Both the position numbers and the translations under genes were made by a program. From contig NZ_CP047950.1 in the NCBI RefSeq assembly GCF_014280075.1, positions 1,240,001 through 1,304,000 of the forward strand: 64,000 bases of DNA. Reading direction: 5' to 3'. The DNA comes from Synechococcus sp. A15-62 (GTDB lineage Bacteria; Cyanobacteriota; Cyanobacteriia; PCC-6307; Cyanobiaceae). Each line of letters opens with the position of its first letter. The stretch's first letter is position 1. The notes under the pieces are model-generated. The model was given only the letters and a program-made list of their open reading frames with translations. It searched no databases and had not been told where the DNA came from. This document shows positions 22,810-50,210 of the stretch, piece after piece.

Positions 22810-22883
22810 CAAAGCCCGCTGGGGCCAACTGCGGGGCTGTCCATCAGCAATCCCACTGCACGCCTGGAGTTGGCATTTTGGTC

Positions 22884-22973
22884 GTGTGAGGAAAAACGCC
22901 TCACGGGGTGGAAACAAGGTCACACTCCCGAGAGTCGTTTTGGAGCCCCTGCCTTCGGCGGGGGTTTCTTTTT
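22884..22973 (+). ncRNA. Yfr2-family small RNA
   Basis: A 5' hairpin (GTGAGG ... CCTCAC), then GGGGTGGAAACAAGG with the family motif GGAAACA in the loop of a second hairpin (GGG-GTG pairs with CAC-T-CCC), then an intrinsic terminator. The same order recurs on the other strand at 59562-59650. This matches what is known of the Yfr2-type RNAs of marine cyanobacteria, which carry GGAAACA in a single-stranded region. The 5' end is estimated. Confidence 0.75.
22946..22973 (+). terminator. Intrinsic terminator of the Yfr2 RNA
   Basis: Eight-base-pair stem CCCCTGCC/GGCGGGGG with one G-T pair and a TTC loop, followed by TTTCTTTTT. Confidence 0.85.
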
Positions 22974-24232: not shown

Positions 24233-24400
24233 GCGCCGCCTTCACTCACGCCAATGCTGACAACACACCCCGAACAAGGCAGCAAAAAAGTAGCCGTTGA
24301 TACAGATTGAGGCTATGGTGAAGTCACGTTGAGCCTCATCCACAGGCCGCAGTCAGATCCACGCCAGGCAACGGGGGTGTGGGCACCGGGCAAGAGAGAG

Positions 24401-47331: not shown

Positions 47332-48042
47332 TCAGCCGAGGGGATCGATCAGGCCGTAGAGCAACGCCATCACCGCCAGCTGGGTGCGATCCGCGGCACC
47401 CAACTTGTCTTTGGCAATTACCACGTGGGTCTTCACCGTTTCCACCGAGATGCCAAGGCTGCTGCCGATGCCCTGGTTGGTGAGGCCGCGGGCGACGCCA
47501 GCCACCACCTCCAGTTCCCGCTCGGTGAGCTCCTCAATCAACGGCGGCAGGTTCGGGTTCGGTGCTTCGGCCGCACCGAGCTGGCGAATCTCCTCAGGGA
47601 GATACACACCGCCTTCGGAAAGGGTTTGAAGGGCTTGAACGAAATCGCCCTTGCCGGTGCCGAGGCTTGATTTGAAGATCACCGCATCGGCATAGGCCTG
47701 CATCGCCTCCTGCACCACGGCCTGGGTTTCGCGCACCAGCACGATCAACAGCTGACAGGTGGGCAGCTCCTGCTTCACCCGCCGCAGCAGATTCATGCCG
47801 TAGCCGGTTTCCAGATCCGAGCTGCAGATCAGCAGGCTCGGCTTGTGGCGCAGCACCAGTTCAAAGCCTTCGTCTTCAGTGGTCGCGGCACCCACCACGG
47901 CACGGCGGATCGGCTCGGCCAGACAGAGGCAGGCCAGGGTGAGGCGATCACCGCAGCAGGCCACCACCCGCTGGGTCTTGAAAAACTGCGCCGTTGCTTC
48001 GACGGCTTCGTGCAAAGCGCGAGACTCGAGCCGCAGCTCCAT
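47332..48042 (-). CDS. LuxR-type two-component response regulator
   Basis: 236 residues from ATG 48042. N-terminal receiver-like domain (CGDRLTLACLCLAEPI, LLICSSDLETGYGMNLL with the likely phospho-Asp, ADAVIFKSS with conserved Lys) and C-terminal LuxR HTH LTERELEVVAGVARGLTNQG ... VETVKTHVVIAKDKLGA. The N-terminal acidic pair is reduced to one Asp. The nearby twin palindromes at 48305-48356 could be its targets. Confidence 0.88.
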   Translation of the reverse strand: MELRLESRALHEAVEATAQFFKTQRVVACCGDRLTLACLCLAEPIRRAVVGAATTEDEGFELVLRHKPSLLICSSDLETGYGMNLLRRVKQELPTCQLLIVLVRETQAVVQEAMQAYADAVIFKSSLGTGKGDFVQALQTLSEGGVYLPEEIRQLGAAEAPNPNLPPLIEELTERELEVVAGVARGLTNQGIGSSLGISVETVKTHVVIAKDKLGAADRTQLAVMALLYGLIDPLG

Positions 48043-48067
48043 CCCAGGCTGTTCGGATGCCCCTCTT

Positions 48068-48253
48068 TTAGCGGCGTTTGGATGGCTCAGCTGCAGAGCC
48101 ATCACGCCCAGCATCGCGACGGACCACGCCGCGGATGCAGTGGGGATAGCGCTGACGCCCCAGGCGACAGGCGTGGGCGGCATCGGCCACCTGCACCGTT
48201 TCGGTCTGCAGCTCGCCGTTGCACTGAAGAATCAGGTCGTAAAGAGAAGACAT
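48068..48253 (-). CDS. Small soluble protein, 61 residues
   Basis: MSSLYDLILQCNGELQTETV then DAAHACRLGRQRYPHCIRGV, basic C-terminus. Resembles 32338-32493 in its start (YDLI ... ET..A.D). Divergent from the gene at 48390 across a 136-base palindrome-bearing gap. Confidence 0.65.
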   Translation of the reverse strand: MSSLYDLILQCNGELQTETVQVADAAHACRLGRQRYPHCIRGVVRRDAGRDGSAAEPSKRR

Positions 48254-49086: not shown

Positions 49087-49188
49087 ATGGAATTCCTCGT
49101 TGCAAGCTGCTTCATTTTTCCGCTCTCTGCCCTGTGGATTCAATCTAGGGAAGACGACAACAATGAAGACGAGATGGACTTTCTCTGA
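49087..49188 (+). CDS. Small membrane protein, 33 residues
   Basis: MEFLVASCFIFPLSALWIQS then an acidic tail (REDDNNEDEMDFL): one hydrophobic helix. The 3' end overlaps the start of the tandem repeat on this strand. Function unknown. Confidence 0.5.
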   Translation: MEFLVASCFIFPLSALWIQSREDDNNEDEMDFL

Positions 49189-49189
49189 A

Positions 49190-49357
49190 TCAAGCCCAGA
49201 ACAGAGACAAGGCTGAGGTCTTCAACGCTTGGGTCAGAAGATCCACAACCAGCTTGGCGAGAGCGATATTCATCAGAGCAAGTGACATGCTCTATTTTTC
49301 TGAGGCATCAACTACATTTTCTGGTCAATTTAGATTTTTATCTCAGAAGAAATGCAT
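49190..49357 (-). pseudogene. Decayed copy of the small membrane protein gene
   Basis: Aligned to the intact copy at 49444-49614 this reading starts at the same ATG CAT TTC but meets three stop codons early on (MHFF stop DKNLN stop, then a third). The C-terminal half stays open from an internal ATG at 49288 (MSLALMNIALAKLVVDLLTQ), so a 32-residue product is possible. Confidence 0.7.
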
Positions 49358-49443
49358 CGTCTTGGAGTTGATGCATGTTTCCAAAGGCATTAAGATCTCC
49401 AGATCTAAGTGATCAGATGGAAATGGTGTGGACTTTCTCTGAA

Positions 49444-49614
49444 TCAAGCCCTGGAGGACGGCAAGACCGAGGCCTTCAACTCATGGGCCAGAAGATCGGT
49501 GGCAAGCATGGTGAGAGCAACACCCATCAGAGCGAGAGCCATGCCCTTATTTTTGTCTGAAGCAATGGCTACATTCCTGGACAATTCCAGATGTTTTTCC
49601 CAGGAGAAATGCAT
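49444..49614 (-). CDS. Small membrane protein, 56 residues (intact copy)
   Basis: MHFSWEKHLELSRNVAIASD then KNKGMALALMGVALTMLATD and LLAHELKASVLPSSRA. One amphipathic/hydrophobic helix. Preserved while its tandem partner decayed, which suggests selection. GGAGAAATG context around the start is only partly SD-like. Function unknown. Confidence 0.6.
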   Translation of the reverse strand: MHFSWEKHLELSRNVAIASDKNKGMALALMGVALTMLATDLLAHELKASVLPSSRA

Positions 49615-49811
49615 CAGCTCTAGGCCTATACATGCTTTCTAAGGCCATAAGCCTTTGCGATCCGAGTGATCAGTGGCATTCAGAAATGTTCTGTAATGAC
49701 AGCAATGCATTGAGATGAGCATTCTTTCCTCAAATCGGTTGCAAGTACTACGTTTTTGATTTGCAGCAGCAAAAGTTCTCGGGTACGTTCCGCTCACCAA
49801 GCCACAAGCCA

Positions 49812-49991
49812 ATGGAACCGATCGCGTTGACTCTGGGCCAGAAATTTGAAGTCGAAAAATTCTCACGCGAGATCGACAACTCGGACGACCTTGCAGCCCT
49901 ACGCAGCATTGCCAAAGAGCTTTTGGTGGCATGGAAACAACAGCAAGCCGCGTCAGCTTGGATCGTGCGCCAGCAGTCCCAGGGTCTCTGA
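49812..49991 (+). CDS. Small helical protein, 59 residues
   Basis: MEPIALTLGQKFEVEKFSRE then NSDDLAALRSIAKELLVAWK and a Gln/Ala-rich end. Layout (strand then long helix) recalls picocyanobacterial small proteins near phoH. An upstream TTG at 49761 is less likely. Not recognised. Confidence 0.65.
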   Translation: MEPIALTLGQKFEVEKFSREIDNSDDLAALRSIAKELLVAWKQQQAASAWIVRQQSQGL

Positions 49992-50033
49992 AATCAGCTC
50001 CTTTCGCTCTCAGCACCAATGGAAGGCAACCAA

Positions 50034-50210
50034 ATGATCACCACCATTACGTTGGAGAGAGATGTTCTGCGTCTTCTGCACCGTGTCGTGGCTGAAGCTC
50101 ACGACAACTGGCCCGGCGGTGACGCCAACGAACAGGCCTGCCTGTTGAACATGAAGACCCAGCTCTATGCGGCCTTGATGGACCACCTGCTCGAATCGGG
50201 TTCCATCTGA
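50034..50210 (+). CDS. Small helical protein, 58 residues
   Basis: MITTITLERDVLRLLHRVVA then NWPGGDANEQACLLNMKTQL. ATG 50034 has GGAAGG 7 bases upstream; ATG 50019 is the alternative. Directly downstream of the 59-residue gene, so probably one transcript. Confidence 0.62.
   Translation: MITTITLERDVLRLLHRVVAEAHDNWPGGDANEQACLLNMKTQLYAALMDHLLESGSI

Follow-up and report, generated by a model that had tools for sequence, protein, structure and literature searches.

RESULTS

A small gene lies in a tandem duplication as one intact and one broken copy

The window analyzed here is a stretch of 64,000 nucleotides from the genome of Synechococcus sp. A15-62. On its reverse strand, an open reading frame from 49444 to 49614 (ATG at 49614, TGA at 49444-49446) encodes a 56-amino-acid protein, MHFSWEKHLELSRNVAIASDKNKGMALALMGVALTMLATDLLAHELKASVLPSSRA, which we call SMP. 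A second, broken copy of the gene lies downstream on the same strand at 49190 to 49357, and a repeat search of the window returned a direct repeat of 125 nt at 49175 and 49429, with an identity of 75% and a spacing of 254 nt. Comparison by blastn of the intact copy plus 60 nt of upstream sequence with its own downstream DNA gave 70.8% identity over 233 columns (E of 2.9e-24), a similarity far beyond chance. Unit 1 spans 49175 to 49416 (242 nt) and holds the broken copy, unit 2 spans 49429 to 49673 (245 nt) and holds the intact copy, and the 12 nt between them form a spacer. The units run from 15 nt beyond the SMP stop to 59 nt upstream of the SMP start.

An earlier note on this DNA had described two 257-base units in tandem, each with the same small reverse-strand gene, one living and one dead. 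The pair is real, with units that are 71% identical, and the unit length was about right, as an in-frame deletion of 3 nt in the dead copy makes the spacing 254 nt at one end and 257 nt at the other. The output of TRF at its default score contained no tandem array here, as is expected of copies this diverged. SMP copies elsewhere in the same genome, a single contig of 2,294,140 bases, were absent at an E of 0.001 or less. Translation of the dead copy begins MHFF*DKNLN*PENVVDASEK*SMSLALMN, with TGA, TGA, and TAG stops at codons 5, 11, and 22, after which the frame is open to the normal stop; three early stops in the first unit and an intact frame in the second are what the earlier note had reported.

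Rfam searches at gathering and relaxed thresholds returned nothing credible across the repeat and SMP region. Elsewhere in the window, a Cyano-1 sRNA (22880 to 22944) and a Glutamine-II riboswitch (24324 to 24383), both on the forward strand, scored above the Rfam gathering score. A reverse-strand gene for a LuxR-type regulator with a GerE domain (47332 to 48183) had same-place matches only in separate pieces in three genomes (G031, G019, and G001), in a mapping step that dropped neighboring pieces, and this gene is possibly a second one decaying near SMP.

SMP is a conserved protein-coding gene under purifying selection

A protein search of 58 other genomes found SMP in 28, all of the same genus (28 of the 33 genomes within that genus). 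Of 400 family genomes, 106 matched a profile built from 19 members, and the matches were distributed over 9 of 59 genera. The best match contained a stop in 7 of the 106 matching genomes, and in the two of these seven that were read (G167 and G118) the gene merely ends earlier. Moreover, the SMP frame was open in all 41 loci compared, namely the window and 40 loci that were fetched because they matched SMP, and the start codon was ATG in 39 of them and GTG in 2. The family shares the core pattern MHFSW..H..LSR.V......G.ALALMGVALT.L..DLL. A codon model (M0) fitted to 41 sequences over 45 codons gave a family-wide omega of 0.16, a value that is approximate as a nucleotide tree supplied both the topology and the relative branch lengths; fixing omega at 1 gave a worse fit (2dlnL of 406).

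SMP resembled nothing in the collections searched. Significant matches were absent from Pfam and PHROGs for 19 members, from NCBIfam for the window protein, and from the PDB for the profile. The best matches below threshold were phrog_16067 (E of 0.016, one member) and phrog_23349 (E of at least 0.038, seven members), and the best PDB match of the profile was a designed protein that is not credible (E of 0.0083). The phage collection held no match to SMP, and no description of SMP was found among open PMC papers. We conclude that SMP encodes a genuine protein, is conserved, and is maintained by purifying selection.

Second copies share a single origin and decayed separately

Among 59 genomes, an adjacent second match to SMP was present only in A15-62, G031, G029, G019, and G001. 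Alignment of 12 loci placed the duplication in the same five and indicated its absence from the other seven. The second copy was broken in all five carriers, with lesions that consisted of stops in the window, frameshifts in G031, G019, and G029, and a lost start plus indels in G001. Live copies of the five carriers had a pS of 0.260, a pN of 0.051, and a pN/pS of 0.20 (codon bootstrap, 0.11 to 0.34), whereas the dead copies of the same genomes had a pS of 0.261, a pN of 0.254, and a pN/pS of 0.97 (codon bootstrap, 0.71 to 1.54), with stop codons and gapped codons excluded. The contrast held in each half of the gene: pN/pS was 0.89 and 1.00 for the two halves of the dead copies and 0.22 and 0.18 for those of the live copies. 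What stays open of the dead copy, its C-terminal half, is therefore an unconstrained leftover. Both the pN/pS of the live copies and the family-wide omega bear out the earlier proposal that selection maintains the intact frame, and a frame broken everywhere, the observation named as contrary to that proposal, was not what the SMP-matching loci and genomes contained.

In a tree of live and dead copies, the dead copies formed one clade with a support of 0.999. Some lesions were apparently common to A15-62 and G029, and others to G031 and G019. The clade and the common lesions indicate one duplication followed by lineage-specific decay. Trees of flanking genes did not recover the carriers as monophyletic, in analyses that covered 11 of the 41 loci in one case and 10 in the right-flank tree, as some genomes were without the compared genes. 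Either later clean losses in the nested noncarriers or exchange between strains must therefore be assumed, and the history given here for the duplication is provisional to that extent. The locus had been characterized earlier as gene birth or decay caught in the act. Decay is borne out by the broken second copy in every carrier, but birth does not apply, as a gene that matches 106 of 400 family genomes and is open in every locus compared is old. We conclude that the dead copies have a single origin and that the locus records the decay of a duplicate of an old gene.

SMP is paired with a divergent gene at a conserved distance

Back to back with SMP, on the forward strand, lies a gene for a 59-amino-acid protein (49812 to 49991; MEPIALTLGQKFEVEKFSREID...), here called the partner. 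The two start codons are separated by an intergenic region of 197 nt (49615 to 49811). When the genes of the window were mapped on 40 loci, the partner stayed beside SMP even where the remaining gene order was lost. Of 41 loci, 24 had start codons exactly 197 nt apart and 40 had them between 178 and 206 nt apart; in the remaining locus (G024) the partner starts with TTG, and the partner of G022 is apparently frameshifted. A further small open reading frame of 63 amino acids (50019 to 50210, forward strand) lies beyond the partner, is present in 29 of 41 loci, and matched nothing in Pfam or NCBIfam.

The pairing was also seen when genomes were ranked by their partner match. SMP was present in 45 of the best 46 genomes, a set defined by a cut (E of 2e-30 or less) that was chosen after the partner matches were seen, and in all 45 the genes were divergent and 182 to 200 nt apart, 24 of them at 197 nt. 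In the 46th genome, G002, the partner lies at a contig start. Five genomes (G008, G013, G004, G299, and G167) contained additional divergent paralogous pairs, and in three (G249, G228, and G191) SMP and the partner were adjacent on the same strand. A same-strand partner 0.5 to 1.1 kb from SMP was the nearest among the matches listed for G225, G322, and G327. One genome that was 98% complete, G007, was without SMP, and its partner match was weak (E of 1.5e-11). Partner-family genes were more widespread than SMP, occurring in 242 of 400 genomes, among the matches listed, versus 106 for SMP, and some strong partner-family matches (E of about 1e-28) occurred in genomes without SMP, such as G126 and G135. 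Separately, a weak SMP-like frame in G029 (L141, 4214 to 4540, reverse strand; E of 1.9e-7) had no partner in the 9 kb read and may belong to another subfamily.

The spacer itself is constrained: in 15 diverged loci with 197-nt spacing, the mean pairwise identity of the central 100 nt was 0.70, between the values for the third codon positions (0.58) and for positions 1 and 2 (0.82) of SMP. The most conserved block (49679 to 49714; 15-locus consensus, TTCAGAAATGTTCTGTAATGACAGCAATGTATTGAG) reached a conservation of up to 0.92 in 12-nt windows, lies outside the duplication, and is missing from unit 1. It is probably shared regulatory DNA; a search of the intergenic region for a sigma-70-like promoter found none. 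We conclude that the pairing and the spacing of SMP and its partner are conserved.

The partner is probably a distant relative of NblA

Standard models gave no credible match to the partner: 17 partner sequences were searched against Pfam and NCBIfam, and the NblA model, PF04485, matched none of them. All 17 matched phrog_27081, a family of unknown function (best E of 3.5e-8). The same PF04485 model matched 20 of 23 genomes of other cyanobacteria versus 0 of 5 genomes of Cyanobiaceae. When a partner profile of 38 sequences was aligned by hhalign with an NblA profile of 28 sequences collected via PF04485, the probability was 91.4% over 56 columns, with a score of 33.6 and an E of 8.9e-7 that refers to a single comparison. 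Of 100 column shuffles, none scored above 17.6, and the reversed profile scored 8.1; a smaller partner profile of 17 sequences reached 73% over only 23 columns.

The partner resembles NblA in its length of about 59 amino acids, its two predicted helices, and an N-terminal L-[ST]-x-x-Q-x-F pattern, a likeness that concerns the partner and not SMP. It differs in falling below Pfam detection, in having several members per genome, and in being paired with SMP. An AlphaFold2 model of the partner had helices at residues 8 to 23 and 27 to 56 (mean pLDDT of 85, pTM of 0.53); a Foldseek search with it against the PDB returned nothing at an E of 0.001 or less and no NblA among the 48 matches listed. Partner-family members numbered up to seven per genome among the matches listed and six in A15-62, where two NblA-like paralogues also lie in tandem near 928 kb (L132, 3010 to 3395). 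An SMP paralogue is divergent from the first of these tandem genes in G008, G013, and G004, and none is visible in A15-62 or G033.

Phage genes were also related to the partner. The partner profile matched AEZ65625 of S-TIM5 (31 bits) and ACT65611 of PSS2 (50 bits), the latter annotated as similar to WH7803_0965. Neither phage homologue matched the NblA profile significantly (E of 0.07 and 0.54), and SMP was matched in no phage record, including those of S-TIM5 and PSS2 (L175 and L176). According to the text available from PMC9602691, the nblA of the cyanomyovirus S-TIM5 was grouped with picocyanobacterial nblA genes, and an excerpt of PMC7439483 attributes a divergent nblA-like gene to WH8102; both cite Nadel et al. 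2019 for such genes. In contrast, an nblA homologue was reported absent from strain CS-601 in the relevant passage of PMC6337551. We liken the partner to these picocyanobacterial and cyanomyovirus genes by their description and by the S-TIM5 and PSS2 matches, without implying that they are the same paralogue, but the portions available of PMC9602691 and PMC7439483 mention no paired small protein. Taken at moderate confidence, the profile comparison and the shared pattern argue that the partner is a distant relative of NblA.

SMP is a putative membrane protein of phycobilisome-bearing genomes

SMP contains a hydrophobic stretch at residues 25 to 43 with a Kyte-Doolittle maximum of 1.92, and the maximum was at least 1.6 in 27 of 32 family members. 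This is a short stretch, with a conserved Asp close to its end. An AlphaFold2 model placed helices at residues 5 to 21 and 23 to 49, the second of which holds the hydrophobic stretch (mean pLDDT of 77, pTM of 0.50), and a Foldseek search of the PDB with the model returned nothing at an E of 0.001 or less. That SMP is a membrane protein, as the earlier note called it, is plausible. Norf4 and HliR1, cyanobacterial membrane microproteins described in part of PMC5126843, are likewise tiny with one predicted transmembrane segment; the comparison is by description only, and Norf4 differs in that it is stated there to be missing from alpha-cyanobacteria.

Phycobilisome linker genes were present in all 106 genomes with SMP. 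When genomes were sorted by linker matches, SMP occurred in 104 of the 220 that had at least two, in 2 of the 83 that had a single one, and in 0 of the 97 that had none, an association that is confounded by descent. Within the window, a gene for a phycobilisome linker protein (PF00427; 45922 to 46794, reverse strand) lies about 2.7 kb from the pair and, in the loci fetched, is near it only in close relatives. NblA guides ClpC to phycobilisomes, as stated in the text consulted from PMC7760959. A candidate identity for SMP was NblD/NsiR6, which is small (66 amino acids), acts beside NblA, and has a reported homologue in marine Synechococcus WH 8102, but which is defined by four conserved cysteines according to the excerpts of PMC7760959 and PMC5126843. 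SMP was rejected as NblD/NsiR6, as the four cysteines are missing: any cysteine occurs in 10 of 32 aligned members, at most two per protein, and the SMP of the window has none.

DISCUSSION

We infer that SMP and its neighbor make up a module of two genes, with SMP as a membrane-associated companion to an NblA-like adaptor of picocyanobacteria. Our confidence is evenly divided for and against the full reading, that SMP of phycobilisome-bearing Cyanobiaceae works with the distant NblA homologue encoded back to back with it and that the duplicate was redundant and decayed. According to this model, both genes would be expressed from one shared intergenic region. The NblA-like protein would be an adaptor of two helices that acts on the light-harvesting antenna in the way that NblA delivers ClpC to phycobilisomes. 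SMP, which has one conserved hydrophobic helix, would tether or modulate that adaptor at the thylakoid membrane. A role as anchor or modulator is proposed for SMP because of the hydrophobic helix, the co-occurrence with linker genes, and the role of NblA with ClpC, and because SMP is not NblD. Membrane association, coregulation, physical interaction, and a part in antenna turnover may belong to the module. A more specific version is rather unlikely as stated: SMP, expressed divergently, would serve as an unrecognized anchor or brake and set the timing of an antenna-degrading adaptor in phycobilisome-bearing ocean cyanobacteria for which standard models find no nblA.

One alternative, doubtful and yet deserving serious consideration, is that SMP and the NblA-like gene share a regulatory region while their products act separately, SMP being a membrane microprotein of a photosystem, a transporter, or a stress response. 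Divergent neighbors need not interact, partner-family genes occur without SMP, and SMP resembles no known family, all of which would fit separate action. Separate action is harder to reconcile with an adjacency that persists from one genus to another, recurs in paralogous pairs, and survives a change of orientation in three genomes, or with G007, which is without SMP where the partner match is also weak and which we count as a joint absence. Two very small adjacent genes, one of them hydrophobic, with extra paralogous pairs in five genomes, might instead suggest something like a toxin-antitoxin pair, with SMP as the short hydrophobic peptide and the partner as a small helical antidote. We consider this improbable, as the loci read show a divergent pair and not an operon, the partner is distantly related to NblA, and SMP had no match in the phage collection.

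Two further alternatives concern the reading frames themselves. The dead copy could still function as a shorter peptide encoded by its open C-terminal half, as about 34 open codons follow the last stop and an ATG lies two codons after it. A functional truncated copy was rejected and is very improbable: the C-terminal half had a pN/pS of 1.00 among the five dead copies, 34 open codons are unremarkable with a chance of 0.14 at this composition, and the ATG is AGG in G029. Finally, the well-conserved intergenic DNA might lead one to suppose that a regulatory RNA or antisense transcript is the conserved entity and the open reading frame incidental. The codon pattern disfavors an RNA-only reading, which was rejected and which we regard as scarcely credible, since the pN/pS of 0.20 and the omega of 0.16 reflect constraint on protein and there was no Rfam match at that position.

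As for the duplicate, some marine Synechococcus descend from an ancestor in which a segment containing the whole of SMP was duplicated in tandem. The second copy, lying downstream and without the shared intergenic block, was probably redundant, and it decayed separately in the carrier lineages. Any expression of the new copy probably depended on read-through, given its place downstream and the missing conserved block. Its position and the missing block may be why it died. Duplication and decay are in themselves ordinary, and what they provide here is a natural control. A comparison of live with dead copies in the same five genomes, at equal synonymous divergence, shows that an uncharacterized open reading frame of 56 amino acids encodes a protein under selection. 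The locus also points to a conserved module of that small protein and a distant relative of NblA, through which antenna turnover in marine Synechococcus would become open to experimental test.
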